The notes below the pieces were generated by a model. The model was not told the DNA's origin. It saw nothing but the letters and a program-made list of their open reading frames with translations, and did not search any database. A program made the position numbers and the translations under genes. DNA of 58,903 nt from Verrucomicrobiota bacterium. GTDB lineage: Bacteria; Verrucomicrobiota; Verrucomicrobiia; Limisphaerales; J093. Shown here in pieces: positions 18,520-26,936 of the stretch (the stretch's first letter is position 1; each line of letters starts with the position of its first letter). Where the stretch lies: assembly GCA_012517065.1 (NCBI GenBank), contig JAAYVR010000227.1, positions 1 to 58,903 of the forward strand, read 5' to 3'.

Positions 18520-19926
18520 ATGAATAAAATGCTGCTCCATCTGTTCGTCTCCGCCGCAGTCCTCACAGCGCCAGTCCTCAGCGCGCAACTGCCAAAGCTG
18601 CGTGTTAGTGAGAATCACCGATTCCTTGTAAGAGAAGACGGCAAACCGTTCTTCTGGCTGGGAGACACCGCGTGGGAGCTGTTCCACAGGCTCAACCGCG
18701 AGGAAGCCATTCAATACCTTGACAATCGCGCGCGGCTTGGATTCACCGTCGTTCAAGCTGTCGCCCTTGCCGAACTGGACGGACTCAACGCGCCAAACCC
18801 TTACGGCCATCGTCCACTTATCGATAACGATCCCACACGACCCGATGTGAAAGACGGACCGGAAAATGATTACTGGGATCATGTTGATTTCATCGTCCGC
18901 GAGGCAAACAAACGCGGCATCTACATCGGGTTCCTCCCCACATGGGGAGATAAATGGAACAAGAAATGGGGCACAGGCCCCGAGATTTTTACACCGGCAA
19001 ACGCCACGACTTACGGTGAATGGCTGGGCCGACGCTATCGTGACGCAGGCATCGTCTGGGTTCTCGGAGGCGATCGGCCGGTCGAAAACAACACGCACAA
19101 GGAAATAATCCGTGCGATGGCACGCGGTTTGCGCGCAGGAGACGGCGGCAACCACCTTCTTACTTTGCATCCAACAGGCGGACAGAGTTCTGCACAGTAC
19201 TTTCACAATGAAGACTGGCTCGATTTCAACATGCGCCAGAACGGGCACGTCGCCGAATACACCGGCCGATACGACCAGACACGCGCAGATTATGATCGCA
19301 CACCGGCCAAACCGGTGATCGATGGCGAGCCCATTTACGAGGATCACCCGGTTTCATTCGACCCAAAAAAGCTGGGGCATTCAATCGCTGCCGATGTGCG
19401 CCGACCGCTTTACTGGGACTTGTTCAATGGCGCGTTTGGCCACACATACGGTCATCATTCCGTTTGGCAGATGTGGGCGCCGCCGCGCAACCCCGTTAAC
19501 AACCCGTTGATGCCATGGTCTGCCGCAATCAATCAACCCGGCGCAGCCCAAATGCAGTTCGGCCGGCGGTTGATCGAATCAAGACCGTTCCTGACGCGCA
19601 TCCCGGACCAGTCGGTAATCGTGACGGATCGCGTCCCCACTTCGGTCCCCGGCGCAGGTCGGTACGCGTTTGTGGCAACCCGCGATCTAGATGGAACCTA
19701 CGCGATGGTCTATGCCCCGGTGGGCAGAAGCTTCAAAGTGCGCATGCCAGTCATCAAAGGACCCAAAGTCAAAGCATCGTGGTACAACCCCCGCACCGGT
19801 GACACCACAGCGATCGGCGAGTTCCCAAACTCAGGCGACCGCGAGTTTGCCCCGCCCAACAACGGCGAGATGCTCGATTGGGTCCTGGTTCTTGATGATG
19901 CATCAAAGCAATATCCACTACCCTAA
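18520..19926 (+). CDS. secreted DUF4038 glycoside hydrolase with C-terminal collagen-binding-like domain
   Basis: About 468 aa from the ATG at 18520, which begins a signal peptide ([18 protein letters not shown]). Residues about 25-340 form the DUF4038 TIM barrel (GH140-like), with the N-terminal [21 protein letters not shown] strand pattern, WVLGGDRP and DGEPIYED at the positions expected for carboxylate residues. Residues about 370-465 match the putative collagen-binding domain that usually follows DUF4038 (WYNPRTGD). It probably cleaves a plant- or algal-type polysaccharide outside the cytoplasm; the linkage is unknown. It diverges from the helicase with a shared promoter region at about 18430-18519. 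Confidence 0.85.
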
Positions 19927-19974
19927 ACCTGATCATGCTTGAAAGAAGGCGCCAGATTGCTACCATCCCGCCCA

Positions 19975-20610
19975 GTGAAAACGAGGCAAGTCCTGCCGAT
20001 TGTTTTGATGATTGTTTTCGCGCTGACACGGATTCCCGGTGTATTGCCGGAGAACTTCAGCGCAGTGTACGGTTTGTTGTTTTGTTGCGGCGTGTACATG
20101 ACCGGACGAATGGCATGGTGGCTCCCATTGGCCACCATGGCTGTCACCGACATCGGATTGAATCTTTATTATCAATTGGCACTGGATGTCGATGCATTCA
20201 AGCCTTACCTGCTGTTCAACTACGCCGCGTACGTGGTCCTGATCTGGCTGGGACGCAGGTTCACCGCCAGAGCATCGTGGCTTGCCCTCCTTGGCGGCGG
20301 AATCATGGGCGCAATCCTCTTTTATCTGATCACAAACACAGCGGCGTGGTTCTTCAATCCATTCGGCAATCCTGAGTACACCAAGGACCTCACGGGATGG
20401 ATCATCGCACTCACCCGTGGTACAGCCGGTTACCCGGCTACTGTCGAGTTCTTCCGCAATACCCTGCTCAGCGGAGGTCTGTTCACGGGCCTGTTCGCCG
20501 GCGCAATGAAACTCTTCGCTGCTCCCGAGGAACAGGAAAGCGAAGAGGAAGAACCCGCTGAAGAACCGGCGGAATCACCCGCACCCGAACCGACCGACGC
20601 GAATGGCTGA
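19975..20610 (+). CDS. DUF6580-family putative transport protein
   Basis: 211 aa from a GTG at 19975. An in-frame TTG at 19939 is possible but adds residues unlike a membrane-protein start. The opening strand RIPGVLPENFSAVYG and helix pattern PLATMAVTDIGLNLYY match DUF6580, a small polytopic family resembling the substrate-binding (S) components of ECF transporters. Five to six hydrophobic segments are followed by an acidic, proline-rich tail (about residues 180-211). Vitamin transport is inferred from family shape only. I see no cobalamin or thiamine riboswitch upstream. Confidence 0.75.
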   Translation: MKTRQVLPIVLMIVFALTRIPGVLPENFSAVYGLLFCCGVYMTGRMAWWLPLATMAVTDIGLNLYYQLALDVDAFKPYLLFNYAAYVVLIWLGRRFTARASWLALLGGGIMGAILFYLITNTAAWFFNPFGNPEYTKDLTGWIIALTRGTAGYPATVEFFRNTLLSGGLFTGLFAGAMKLFAAPEEQESEEEEPAEEPAESPAPEPTDANG

Positions 20611-20657
20611 TAGACCCTGTCGGCCAACACTGCCGCAGAGACAAGGTCCAAACGCAC

Positions 20658-21137
20658 ATGAGCAATCAACGTTCACTGGGACTGATTGCTGATACGCACG
20701 GTTTTGTGGACCCGCGGATTCCGGCCATTTTCTCAGGCGTCGGCCATATCCTGCACGCCGGCGACGTTGGCCCCGAATCGGTCCTGCTCGAATTGCAACG
20801 TCTGGCACCCACAACGGCGGTCATCGGTAACACGGACAACTTGTTGGCCCTGCCACACACGGTTGTCATTGACCTTTTTGGCCGCCGGTTTCTGCTTCAG
20901 CACATCGTCGATCCACTGCATCCCACGCCCGAGTTCTCACAATGCATCGAGACCGCGCGCCCCGACATCGTCGTTTTTGGCCATACACATCGGCCGTTCA
21001 TCGACTGGGTCAATGGCAAGCTTTTTGTCAACCCGGGCTCGGCCGGAAAACGTCGCTGGGACACCCAAAGGTCTGTTGCCGTCCTGCACCTGCTGGATGA
21101 AGGACCACACGTGGAACTCCACACCCTGCCGGACTGA
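20658..21137 (+). CDS. YfcE/MJ0936-type metallophosphoesterase
   Basis: 159 aa, typical length for a single-domain calcineurin-like phosphodiesterase. Metal and substrate residues are visible as DTHG (residues 12-15), GDVG (36-39), GNTDN (57-61), a His in QHIVD and GHTHRP (about 108-113). Known members hydrolyse phosphodiesters with Mn2+ in the cytoplasm; the natural substrate is uncertain. It lies 47 bp downstream of the DUF6580 gene on the same strand, possibly cotranscribed. Confidence 0.9.
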   Translation: MSNQRSLGLIADTHGFVDPRIPAIFSGVGHILHAGDVGPESVLLELQRLAPTTAVIGNTDNLLALPHTVVIDLFGRRFLLQHIVDPLHPTPEFSQCIETARPDIVVFGHTHRPFIDWVNGKLFVNPGSAGKRRWDTQRSVAVLHLLDEGPHVELHTLPD

Positions 21138-21152
21138 CAAACTCCCAACCCG

Positions 21153-21307
21153 CATATTTCGCAGCCGGGCGTGGCCGGAACCAAAGTTGCCAGACGGGCA
21201 CTCCACCCGGCTCCTGCCCCCTGGACCTTCAGCCACGCCGGGCTCGGAAATACCTGCTGCGACCCCGTCCGAAGGAAGAGCGCGCTGATCCCAGTGGTTT
21301 CTCACGC
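21153..21307 (+). repeat. dispersed palindromic repeat, family A, copy 3
   Basis: CATATTTCGCAGCCGGGCGT at the left and CCACGCCGGGCTCGGAAATA near 21233-21251 form the arms of an about 100-bp palindrome. The usual tail (CGCGCTGATCCCAGTGGTTT) follows and passes directly into repeat family C. Confidence 0.8.
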
Positions 21308-21387
21308 GCTGCCGCACATGGAGTGCGCGTTGGTAGGCGCGAAGCGTTTGGAGTGCGGCAGCTTGCTGCCGCTTTATTTATGCGCAT
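21308..21387 (+). repeat. dispersed repeat, family C, copy 1
   Basis: GCTGCCGC, then GGTAGGCGCGAAGCGTTTGG and the perfect hairpin GCGGCAGCTTGCTGCCGC. Other copies are at 31463, 31608 and 35455. Its right edge lies about 10 bp from the terminal attC of the integron. Confidence 0.8.
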
Positions 21388-21397
21388 ACGCGATGCT

Positions 21398-21458
21398 GGC
21401 TAACGCCAGAACTGACCGATCCCGCGAAGCGGGATTCGCTCCAGTGATCTTGTTAGGC
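21398..21458 (-). other. attC site of cassette 4 (last)
   Basis: 61 bp. On the minus strand it starts GCCTAAC (21458-21452), contains the central hairpin AATCCCGC/GCGGGATC and ends GTTAGCC (21404-21398). It follows the cassette 4 stop by 4 bp. Confidence 0.85.
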
Positions 21459-21462
21459 GGTG

Positions 21463-21810
21463 TCATTGTGCTTTCTCTCTGTTTTTTCGTCCCTTGGTTT
21501 CGTGGCCCATGATAAAGACATAGTGTTCCGTGCTGCCGGTCACGATGACGAACTGTCCCTCGCGCAAATCCTCGTCGGTGTATCGGCGGCGATGCTCCTC
21601 AAGGACCGAGGCTGGGACATCAGCCAGCGCCACGCCGCGGCAGCCCGGATGAAGAATCTCTCCAATCTGAAGCGGGGTCAAAGTGTCCAATACGCGCTGC
21701 GCCGCTGCGTCGCAAATCTCGGGCCGGGTAAGTGCTGACATGCCGACTTCGTCCTGAATACGGCGTGCCTGCTCCCGAATCTTGTCGTTGATGTCTTTGG
21801 TGAACTCCAT
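21463..21810 (-). CDS. integron cassette 4 protein, unknown
   Basis: 115 aa, soluble, with no signal peptide or membrane segment. The N-terminal half is helical and polar (KDINDKIREQARRIQDEV, then AAAQRVLDTLTPLQIGEIL). The C-terminal half looks like strands (EGQFVIVTGSTEHYVFIMG) ending in a basic tail (KGRKNREKAQ). I do not recognise the family. The ATG is 22 bp after the preceding attC core and is the only sensible start. Its place as the last cassette makes expression from the distant Pc weak unless an internal promoter exists. Confidence 0.7.
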   Translation of the reverse strand: MEFTKDINDKIREQARRIQDEVGMSALTRPEICDAAAQRVLDTLTPLQIGEILHPGCRGVALADVPASVLEEHRRRYTDEDLREGQFVIVTGSTEHYVFIMGHETKGRKNREKAQ

Positions 21811-21831
21811 ACTCGTATGACACTCGAAACC

Positions 21832-21957
21832 GCCTAACGACCAAGCTCAGCGACCTCCGCCGGAAACGCCCGGTTGGCTGCAACAATCACTGTCAAATCA
21901 CCTGCACCGTCCGACGGCCCAGCGGGGCGGCGGTTCGCTGCAGCGCACTGGTTAGGC
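21832..21957 (-). other. attC site of cassette 3
   Basis: 126 bp, the longest site of the array. Minus-strand inverse core GCCTAAC at 21957-21951 includes the TAA stop of cassette 3; the core GTTAGGC is at 21838-21832. The outer 7 bp are perfectly complementary, and inner complementary blocks (such as CAGCGAACCGCC near 21930) allow the imperfect hairpin expected of attC. Confidence 0.88.
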
Positions 21958-22215
21958 AACGTGCTTTTCTCCTCTGCTGACAAACTCAAAGTCCTCATCG
22001 CTCTCCTGTTGAAAAACAAGCCCACCGCCATCTTGCTCGAACATGAACCCTTGACCGAACTCCTCATAATACCACTCCTTAGCCTCGATGAACTCCGGCA
22101 GGAACTCGTCGAAGCCAAGGACAAAGACGACGCGACCCGGGAAGCCGGCCAGTCGCGCTCGATCTCCGGCGTGAATCTCCTCTCCTGAAACATAATGGCG
22201 TGACAAATCTGGCAT
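21952..22215 (-). CDS. integron cassette 3 protein, small SH3-like candidate
   Basis: 87 aa, acidic and rich in aromatic residues. The order GDRARLAGFPGRVVFVLG, a Trp/Tyr-rich middle (EWYYEEFGQGFMF) and GGLVFQQESDEDFEFV suggests a small beta-barrel. I recall similar short acidic proteins among integron cassettes elsewhere, but no function is established. The ATG is 13 bp after the preceding attC core. The stop codon is inside this cassette's own attC (GTTGCCTAAC), which shows the gene and site moved as one unit. Confidence 0.72.
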   Translation of the reverse strand: MPDLSRHYVSGEEIHAGDRARLAGFPGRVVFVLGFDEFLPEFIEAKEWYYEEFGQGFMFEQDGGGLVFQQESDEDFEFVSRGEKHVA

Positions 22216-22228
22216 GACGCACGAAGTC

Positions 22229-22286
22229 GCCTAACGTTTCGGGTCAGGCGCGCTGGTACCGTGTCGCCTGCACCCGCTTGTTCGAT
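22229..22286 (-). other. attC site of cassette 2
   Basis: 58 bp. Minus-strand inverse core ATCGAAC (22286-22280, one mismatch to RYYYAAC), spacer AAG, then inner arms CGGGTGCAGGCG and CGCCTGACCCG, which pair with one bulged base, and core GTTAGGC (22235-22229). The size and order are those of classical short attC sites. Confidence 0.82.
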
Positions 22287-22295
22287 GGTTTGTTC

Positions 22296-23075
22296 TCAGA
22301 TGTTACCAGGCGCGAACCTCCGCAGTTTGGGTTTCACCGATGGATTCCTCTTCACGATGATGTCGTAAAGATACGGCCAGTATTCGGTTGCGTTGGGGCG
22401 GCCCTGCATCTGATTGCGCACGAAGTGGGAGGTTGAGACGACGCGGTGGTTTCGGAGATCATCGAAGAACACTGGAGCTTTTAGACGGCACATGCGACGG
22501 ATCGGCCCCATGTAGTCTTTCCCCTCTTTCCATCCGGCAGTTACTTTTTGGGATCGGTCCGCCGCGACGAAAACATGGCTGATGCACTGTTCTGGCCGCG
22601 TGAAGTAGTACAGGATCAAGTCACCTTTGTGACACTGACTCGGAAGACTCCATAAGTCCGACGAGTAGTCGTTGCCATTGAGCTTCTCTTTGTATGGATC
22701 GTTTATGGGCACGATCCAGACGTTGAAGCCGAGACCAAACTCTCGGCGAAGTTCGATGATTTGGAGATTTGGCGGAGCGTCAGGCCAGTCATGCTCCCAA
22801 CACACGACCCAGTCGCACTGGCTTTTATCGTGTCCGTGGGTCTTGAAGTTCCGAGACTTGAACTCGAACTCAATCCGAATCCGTTTCTCTTTACCTTGGA
22901 TCTTCTGATACGCGATGCAGTCAGGAAACACCGACTGAACCGCGTCCACGCGGAGACGCCACTTGTGTGCAAGGTGAGCAAAAAGAAAGACCACGCCAAG
23001 CTCATTGGAGGGCGCGTATCGGAGGGGCGCGCCCTCAAGGACTTCGTTTCGTGAGGTAGTGTCTGTTTTTTTCAT
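22296..23075 (-). CDS. integron cassette 2 protein: PD-(D/E)xK nuclease fused to a PUA/EVE-like domain
   Basis: 259 aa. The N-terminal domain (residues about 20-112) shows a restriction-endonuclease-like core: Pro51-Asp52 in FPDCIAYQ, then Glu71-Phe-Lys73 in RIEFEFKSR, followed by a QCDWVVCW strand, which is the PD-(D/E)xK layout. The C-terminal domain (about 117-245) starts NVWIVPIND and has KGDLILYYF, ISHVFVAA and a Trp/Tyr-rich end, resembling PUA-fold EVE/YTH-like domains that bind modified bases. A nuclease plus a modified-base reader is the logic of type IV (modification-dependent) restriction, so an anti-phage role is plausible. The domain assignment is by motif only. The ATG is 10 bp after the preceding attC core. 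Confidence 0.68.
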   Translation of the reverse strand: MKKTDTTSRNEVLEGAPLRYAPSNELGVVFLFAHLAHKWRLRVDAVQSVFPDCIAYQKIQGKEKRIRIEFEFKSRNFKTHGHDKSQCDWVVCWEHDWPDAPPNLQIIELRREFGLGFNVWIVPINDPYKEKLNGNDYSSDLWSLPSQCHKGDLILYYFTRPEQCISHVFVAADRSQKVTAGWKEGKDYMGPIRRMCRLKAPVFFDDLRNHRVVSTSHFVRNQMQGRPNATEYWPYLYDIIVKRNPSVKPKLRRFAPGNI

Positions 23076-23085
23076 CTCATCTTAC

Positions 23086-23178
23086 GGCGAACGCCAAAGC
23101 TCTGCGACCGCCACCGTTGATCCTCGATTCCCAACCAGGAGCGTCATCGCCAGGTTCGCTGCATCTGGCTTGTTAGTC
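23086..23178 (-). other. attC site of cassette 1
   Basis: 93 bp. Minus-strand inverse core GACTAAC (23178-23172) overlaps the TAA stop of cassette 1; the core GTTCGCC is at 23092-23086. Both cores deviate slightly from consensus (RYYYAAC/GTTRRRY). Position and stop-codon overlap support the call more than the inner pairing. Confidence 0.7.
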
Positions 23179-23487
23179 CCTGCGTGCATAGCGGAGTTTC
23201 AGAAGCAAGAACCCCACAGTGCCGAGCGTAACCACGACCGCTGATGCGCCTATTACTACCACCGAAGCGCTTGCCCGAGTTGGAAGATAGCCAAGCTGCC
23301 CGAAGAGAAAATATCGTTCGGCGGGAAACTCATCACCGCCGATCTCCAGCCACCCGAACTCGCCAAGGGGAGTGCGAATGGTCCAATTGTGAATGATGCG
23401 CGAGGAGGCTGCCTGTGCGGTGACTGCGACAAGGCCGACCACCAGAGCCAGCAGCACACTTCCTAGGCATGGGCGGGTCGTTCGCAT
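23173..23487 (-). CDS. integron cassette 1 protein, small membrane protein
   Basis: 104 aa. An N-terminal signal-like segment (SVLLALVVGLVAVTAQAAS) precedes a short extracytoplasmic part with Trp, acidic and aromatic residues (GEFGWLEIGGDEFPAERY). A C-terminal transmembrane helix (about residues 74-97) and a basic end (KLRYARRD) follow, giving an outside-in topology. The family is not recognised. It is the cassette nearest attI and therefore the best placed for expression. The ATG is 5 bp from the recombination core. Confidence 0.7.
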   Translation of the reverse strand: MRTTRPCLGSVLLALVVGLVAVTAQAASSRIIHNWTIRTPLGEFGWLEIGGDEFPAERYFLFGQLGYLPTRASASVVVIGASAVVVTLGTVGFLLLKLRYARRD

Positions 23488-23492
23488 TTGCG

Positions 23493-23601
23493 GCCTAACA
23501 ATTAATAGGCATCATACTTGACACCTTTTTTGCGTCACAGTGACATTCTCCGCTTCCAAAACCGTTTGTCAATAGCCAGTTATGATTTGAGGAGGTAAAA
23601 C
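23493..23601 (-). other. attI region of the integron
   Basis: The recombination core reads GTTAGGC on the minus strand (23499-23493). The about 100 bp to the intI start are AT-richer than the flanks and hold two divergent signals: the integrase ribosome-binding site and a possible cassette promoter. The exact outer edge of attI cannot be read from sequence because accessory integrase-binding sites vary between integrons. Confidence 0.65.
23545..23572 (-). promoter_or_regulatory. candidate cassette promoter (Pc)
   Basis: Minus-strand TTGACA (23572-23567) and GAGAAT (23550-23545, 4/6 match) are separated by 16 bp. They point into the cassette array and sit between intI and attI, where Pc lies in many integrons. 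Prediction by eye only. Confidence 0.35.
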
Positions 23602-24012
23602 ATGGAAACTGCAAATGCTTCAGTGGGTCGATTGGAGAGGGTCGTTCCAAATCCCAAGGCAAAACTGCTGGATCAGGTCCGCGAGGTCTTGCGGGTTAAG
23701 CATTACTTCATACAGACTGAGGAGGCTTATGTGGGGTGGATTAAACGATTCATCTTTTTCCACAACAAGAGACATCCACGGGAGATGGGCGCGACCGAGA
23801 TAAGCGCGTTCTTGAGCGATCTCGCCCTACGACTCCATGTGAGCGCCTCAAGGCAAAATCAGGCTTTCAATGCGCTGCTGTTTCCTGGGGCTGGCAATAT
23901 GTCTTTCCGTCGGCCTCCGTGTCGGTAGATCCGGGCAACGGCCAGACACGGCGGCATCGCGCCACCGAGTTGAGTCTTCAGCGTGCGGTCAAGCAGGCTG
24001 TGCGGTCGGCTG
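23602..24012 (+). pseudogene. intI: integron integrase intI, inactivated by deletions
   Basis: The start follows a strong ribosome-binding site (GAGGAGG, 8 nt upstream). Residues 1-91 match the IntI N-terminal SAM-like domain (KLLDQVREVLRVKHYFIQTE, AYVGWIKRFIFFH, NKRHPREMG). The frame is then lost, and from 23886, two frames over, the sequence WGWQYVFPSAS and TRRHRATE, LQRAVKQAVRSAG matches the region specific to integron integrases. By comparison with the known length of IntI1, about 145 codons between the two blocks are gone, and everything after the second block is gone too. The catalytic Arg/Lys region and the HxxR...H...Tyr region are both missing, so the protein cannot recombine DNA. 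The retained intact reading frame is 108 aa. Confidence 0.88.
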
Positions 24013-24093
24013 GCCACTGGCCGGATCGATGTAGCGATCCACCGCACCGCTGGGCACGGTGCCCCGCTGCCAGTTCGGCGCTCGTGGAATAAG

Positions 24094-24130
24094 GATAAGG
24101 TGACAGACACTTTATTTGTTGCACCTTTTG
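24094..24130 (-). repeat. REP-like element, GTGTCTGTC type, reverse orientation
   Basis: GTGACAGACACTTTATTT with AAGGTG/CACCTT arms on each side is the reverse complement of the GTGTCTGTCAC repeat seen across the window. It lies about 80 bp after the last recognisable intI sequence and 45 bp before the next gene. Confidence 0.65.
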
Positions 24131-24175
24131 AACTCTGCGATTGGCCCGCGTGCATGACCGCGCTACACTTCGGTC

Positions 24176-26936
<2,761 letters not shown>

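Follow-up and report, generated by a model that had tools for sequence, protein, structure and literature searches.

What does a gene do when it lies on an integron cassette and joins a nuclease-like domain to a domain that reads modified bases? The question is raised by a gene for a protein of 259 aa on the minus strand (22296..23075) of a 58,903-nucleotide stretch of Verrucomicrobiota DNA, hereafter the window, which is the entire contig C79 of a genome of 5.26 Mb and 95% completeness. Its frame is open from ATG to stop, and 27 further full-length homologues support it. We consider it probable that this nuclease-EVE protein is a type IV restriction enzyme, encoded by one gene and dependent on DNA modification. 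As such, its C-terminal EVE domain would bind DNA and take up a flipped-out modified base in its pocket; this base is most likely a cytosine derivative, for instance 5hmC or 5mC. The PD-(D/E)XK-like domain at the N-terminus, in which D52, E69-x-E71 and perhaps E25 hold a metal, would then cut the DNA nearby. Phage genomes that escape ordinary restriction through base modification would thereby be degraded. The nuclease activity, the DNA substrate, the flipping of a base, the nature of this base and the anti-phage role are what we infer from the evidence below, and the dependence on modification would follow from the EVE domain and from the analogy with the known enzyme VcaM4I.

The cassette array and its integrase

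The nuclease-EVE gene is the second of four cassettes that lie on the minus strand next to the remains of an integron integrase gene (intI; 23602..24014, plus strand), which were located by a search of the genome with TIGR02249. Reading from the integrase, the attI junction is found in the sequence as GTTAGGC (23493..23499, minus strand) at the integrase side of cassette 1, whose ORF (104 aa, 23173..23487, minus strand) is followed by an attC (23086..23178, minus strand) recognized from the sequence and from the same end in L009, the closest relative. The nuclease-EVE cassette has as its 5' end the R' box of this site, GTTCGCC (23086-23092), and ends in turn with its own attC (22229..22286, minus strand; R'' ATCGAAC, R' GTTAGGC), identified by direct reading of the sequence and by the repeat of the cassette end. 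Cassettes 3 and 4 carry ORFs of 87 aa (21952..22215, minus strand) and 115 aa (21463..21810, minus strand) and their attC sites are at 21832..21957 (minus strand; hairpin, R''/R' complementary at 7/7 positions) and 21398..21458 (minus strand; hairpin, 6/7). The ORFs of cassettes 1, 3 and 4 have no Pfam match.

The sites of cassettes 3 and 4 passed a strict attC search, for which the shuffled background is about 0.1 per kb per strand. The attC of the nuclease-EVE cassette is absent from the strict matches because its R''/R' pairing is imperfect; the cassette starts with G/TTCGCC, to which the R'' box ATCGAAC is complementary at 5/7 positions. In L009 the cassette has the same start GTTCGCC and its R'' box GGCGAAC is complementary at 7/7 positions, a result obtained in 0 of 400 random trials in the L009 locus. 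L020 is also a cassette with 7/7 complementary ends, and the same test on the 24 other full-length loci gave no further clear cassette, L023 scoring 7/7 and L027 6/7. By the evidence of sequence, the gene is thus confirmed as a true integron cassette, as are two relatives, and most relatives are not cassettes.

The attC sites and complementary cassette ends bear out the location proposed by the original prediction, and the homologues in integron cassettes that it suggested looking for exist, as L009 and L020. The mobility that it also claimed is weakened by the state of the integrase and by the fact that most relatives are not cassettes. What is left of intI covers model positions 1-73 and 207-254, which lie in different frames. 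Positions 74-206 and the C-terminus are lost, and the search of the genome with TIGR02249 gave no integrase match over the cut-off. The array is therefore probably not self-mobile; an integrase supplied from another source could act on it in trans. Rfam found nothing in positions 19000-25000.

A family of two-domain proteins

Homologues of the protein were collected by scans of genome contigs and of IMG/VR, which returned 80 and 5 loci, respectively. The query and 27 two-domain proteins, including L031, which is clipped by a contig end, form an alignment of 28 rows in which the architecture is kept as a unit, the homologues being 29-81% identical to the query. In the majority of the remaining loci only the N-terminal domain is present, joined to another partner. 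The window protein had no curated match in Pfam, NCBIfam, PADLOC or PHROGs, and plasmid and phage records had no match to the gene. A match to RWD (E 0.08) was not significant, and those to VPS26A, TetR proteins and others in the PDB were below significance. L007 and L008, of aminotransferase type by eye, were treated as chance matches, and L002, which by eye combines EVE and the same nuclease module in reversed order, was not used as evidence since Pfam gave no EVE match.

In the tree, the window protein and L009 are placed beside members from Planctomycetota and Nitrospirota, a position of the sequences that is compatible with a transfer and is not proof of one. The nuclease and EVE halves are encoded by separate ORFs in L015 (5764-6159 and 6187-6570) and L033 (3371-3778 and 3753-4145), both split near the same domain junction, where L030 also breaks; the halves in L015 and L033 may be either natural split genes or products of frameshifts.

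The EVE domain

The C-terminal domain (residues 115-255; 22311..22733, minus strand) is recognized in sequence profiles of the family. Pfam EVE (PF01878) matches 18/28 members, with a best E of 3.1e-8, and does not match the window protein alone. A PDB search with the family profile retrieved the EVE proteins 2gbs (E 0.003) and 1zce (E 0.02). Similarly, in a structure model built on 61 rows with a mean pLDDT of 92.7 (a single-sequence prediction, with a pLDDT of 32, was not usable), residues 115-246 resemble solved EVE structures with Z 13.3-12.3, the highest value being that to 2gbs. The EVE half also matches THYN1, solved with 5mC DNA (Z 11.8), and the EVE domain of VcaM4I (Z 11.1), and ASCH and YTH domains follow below the EVE matches with Z about 10. 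W142, Y157 and W233, which may belong to the hydrophobic pocket for a flipped modified base, are conserved in 27/28 members. Both the sequence profile and the modeled fold confirm that the C-terminal half is an EVE domain of the PUA superfamily, which narrows the PUA/EVE-like domain originally proposed. Since this fold matches VcaM4I, a proven modification-dependent enzyme, it supports the type IV reading.

Neighboring genes and host methylation

The neighbor genes of the relatives were chosen by eye and no enrichment is claimed. At L014 (5503-9840), a possible restriction-modification cluster, the gene has as neighbors an N6/N4 methyltransferase, a 357-aa protein without assigned identity and, directly downstream, a methyltransferase of the D12 class. 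Other neighbors include a methyltransferase-Mrr fusion (L019), AbiEii (L013) and a WYL regulator (L024). Such methyltransferases, AbiEii and the WYL regulator beside some relatives support a type IV enzyme. They could be taken differently, with the nuclease paired with a partner methyltransferase as a restriction-modification pair in some genomes, in which the EVE domain would read the sequence or the mark of the partner. The position of L014 between two DNA methyltransferase genes and that of L019 near the fusion fit such a pair, which we nevertheless hold to be unlikely, given that the window cassette and its array contain no methyltransferase, that most other loci have none in an adjoining gene, and that EVE is a known modified-base reader.

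A type IV enzyme also raises the question of the methylation of its hosts. The host genome has no C5-methyltransferase (PF00145), and 9/24 carrier genomes have one as compared to 109/193 genomes in the phylum (p 0.086), so that avoidance of C5-methyltransferases by the hosts is not supported. In the nine carriers that do have such an enzyme, the target cannot be plain 5mC regardless of context, a point against the type IV reading.

The nuclease-like domain

The N-terminal domain (residues 12-113; 22737..23042, minus strand) was delineated from the model topology and from residue counts. The model, with a local pLDDT mostly >93, contains a helix (25-39), three strands (41-46, 53-59 and 62-73), a helix (75-79) and strands at 89-94 and 105-108, so that the predicted order is helix-strand-strand-strand-helix-strand, as in the PD-(D/E)XK core. 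Across 61 homologues P22, E25, G27, P51, D52, E71, C92, W93 and W97 are invariant, and E69 (60/61), H80 (59/61) and H82 (56/61) are nearly so. A PD-(D/E)XK domain is expected to have an Asp where its second strand begins and an acidic residue within its third strand; these are present as D52 and E71, together with E69. D52 and E69-x-E71 likely form the metal site, to judge from conservation and model, and E25 perhaps also takes part in it.

The canonical catalytic Lys of the (D/E)-x-K motif is missing, as only 22 of the 61 sequences have K at position 73, with R in 17, Q in 5, Y in 5, E in 4, D in 2 and another residue in the others. The triad of Asp52, Glu71 and Lys73 that had been proposed therefore keeps its two acidic members and loses its lysine, and the original prediction had itself named variation of these residues among homologues as evidence against it. 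The topology and motif positions of the PD-(D/E)xK pattern stand in the confident model, with E69-x-E71 instead of E-x-K. Because the canonical Lys is not conserved, we call the domain PD-(D/E)XK-like rather than a proven member of the superfamily, its fold being predicted from topology and motif positions. It had no significant match in Pfam, NCBIfam or the PDB and no curated PADLOC family, hhalign against Mrr_cat gave nothing, and the fold matches listed for the full-length model are all on the EVE half, with no known nuclease among them.

These observations act on the type IV reading in both directions. It is supported by the invariant E25, D52 and E71 and the near-invariant E69 on a core of PD-(D/E)XK order, and weakened because the canonical Lys is absent and because neither profiles nor the PDB gave the nuclease domain a significant match. 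The latter points would suit an N-terminal domain, PD-(D/E)XK-like or unrelated, that is no active nuclease and binds only nucleic acid or metal, as would the existence of a member, L029, without E69 and both His. We find such an inactive domain rather improbable, as D52, E71 and E25 do not vary in 61 sequences with identities as low as 29%, which would be difficult to account for if no metal were bound, and (D/E)-x-E active sites occur in the PD-(D/E)XK superfamily, for instance in BamHI. L029 (2408-3217), in which the E-x-E strand is altered (RIAMEF), may possibly be an inactive copy.

The combination typical of type IV enzymes, a modified-base reader fused to a nuclease domain, is accordingly kept as a unit in 28 sequences, with a nuclease half that is predicted as above. 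Of the type IV enzyme originally proposed, a nuclease-like domain and a modified-base reader in one cassette gene are retained, the triad lysine is not, and the mobility is weakened.

Relation to known systems

Bell, Wolf and Koonin (2020) described EVE-PD(D/E)XK proteins, in which EVE may stand on either side of the nuclease, as putative type IV restriction enzymes (PMC7641849), and this previous prediction supports the type IV reading. The window protein likewise unites these two kinds of domain in a single chain, has the same predicted role, and differs by E-x-E in place of E-x-K, by the lack of a family entry and by its location on a cassette; the paper gives the class and not this family. 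The general design is thus already predicted, and the nuclease module is absent from the curated family libraries searched (Pfam, NCBIfam and PADLOC) and from the PDB, as far as sequence searches can tell. VcaM4I, an enzyme that restricts T4gt and whose nuclease-linked EVE domain flips 5mC/5hmC (PMC7897488), shares the EVE fold and the fusion to a nuclease, whereas its EVE domain is N-terminal and its C-terminal nuclease is of the HNH type. CMoRE, a single-gene type IV enzyme with an N-terminal GIY-YIG nuclease and a C-terminal sensor (PMC12923530), is similar when compared by architecture, since nuclease and modification sensor follow in the same order in a single gene, and differs in its nuclease.

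Integrons are recognized stores of anti-phage genes according to the general description in PMC12409362, which cites Darracq 2025, Kieffer 2025 and Getz 2025. At that level of comparison, the present gene is likewise a predicted defense gene on a cassette, in contrast located in a four-cassette Verrucomicrobiota array with a broken integrase. If active, it would provide a one-gene defense against phages with modified DNA that moves on an integron cassette in some lineages. Its EVE domain could then serve as a reagent to detect modified bases.

A module with exchangeable partners

The N-terminal domain is also found in 52 other proteins, joined to HNH_repeat, a homing-endonuclease-associated repeat, in 32/52 and to DUF5655 in 9/52. 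Their hosts belong to many bacterial phyla and to archaea (Lokiarchaeota, Bathyarchaeota, Thermoplasmata and Nanoarchaeia). A single cutting-like module with exchangeable partners would fit a nuclease guided by a reader. PD-(D/E)XK enzymes act mostly on DNA, and the module is joined to repeats of DNA homing endonucleases, which suits a DNA nuclease and supports the type IV reading. Both points, and the lack of an antitoxin partner seen in the cassette, make very doubtful an RNA-directed enzyme whose EVE domain would read a modified base in tRNA or phage RNA for the nuclease-like domain to cut, possibly as a toxin or an abortive response, even if EVE and YTH domains are known from RNA binding too (PMC7641849) and YTH structures are among the fold matches.

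Some genomes carry several copies of the module, mostly with HNH_repeat, such as one Rhodospirillaceae MAG (L051, L061, L066 and L077) and one Alphaproteobacteria MAG (L042, L052 and L069), which might fit a mobile or multi-target family.

We tentatively propose that the domain represents an undescribed nuclease family with the signature D...E-x-E...H-x-H, in which exchangeable target readers (EVE, homing-endonuclease-associated repeats, DUF5655 and others) would decide what is cut across bacteria and archaea, and of which DUF2851 could be a distant relative. Naming this module would annotate a set of uncharacterized proteins in both domains of life. DUF2851 (PF11013) is the nearest profile to the N-terminal domain (hhalign P 5e-4, score 31, as compared to 10-20 for Mrr and reversed controls). 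The likeness consists of this weak profile match and of E-x-(E/D), F/W and H-x-H positions whose spacing agrees; the difference is that DUF2851 is a longer protein of unknown function. It was present in 30/30 relatives searched, nearly always as a single copy (L094-L113; in the own genome on C91, 6520-7647, L101), a distribution that resembles that of a housekeeping gene. Its motif GPDF...E(I/V)D...W..H.H resembles that of the nuclease module, and from these sequences DUF2851 is possibly an unrecognized PD-(D/E)XK-like family.
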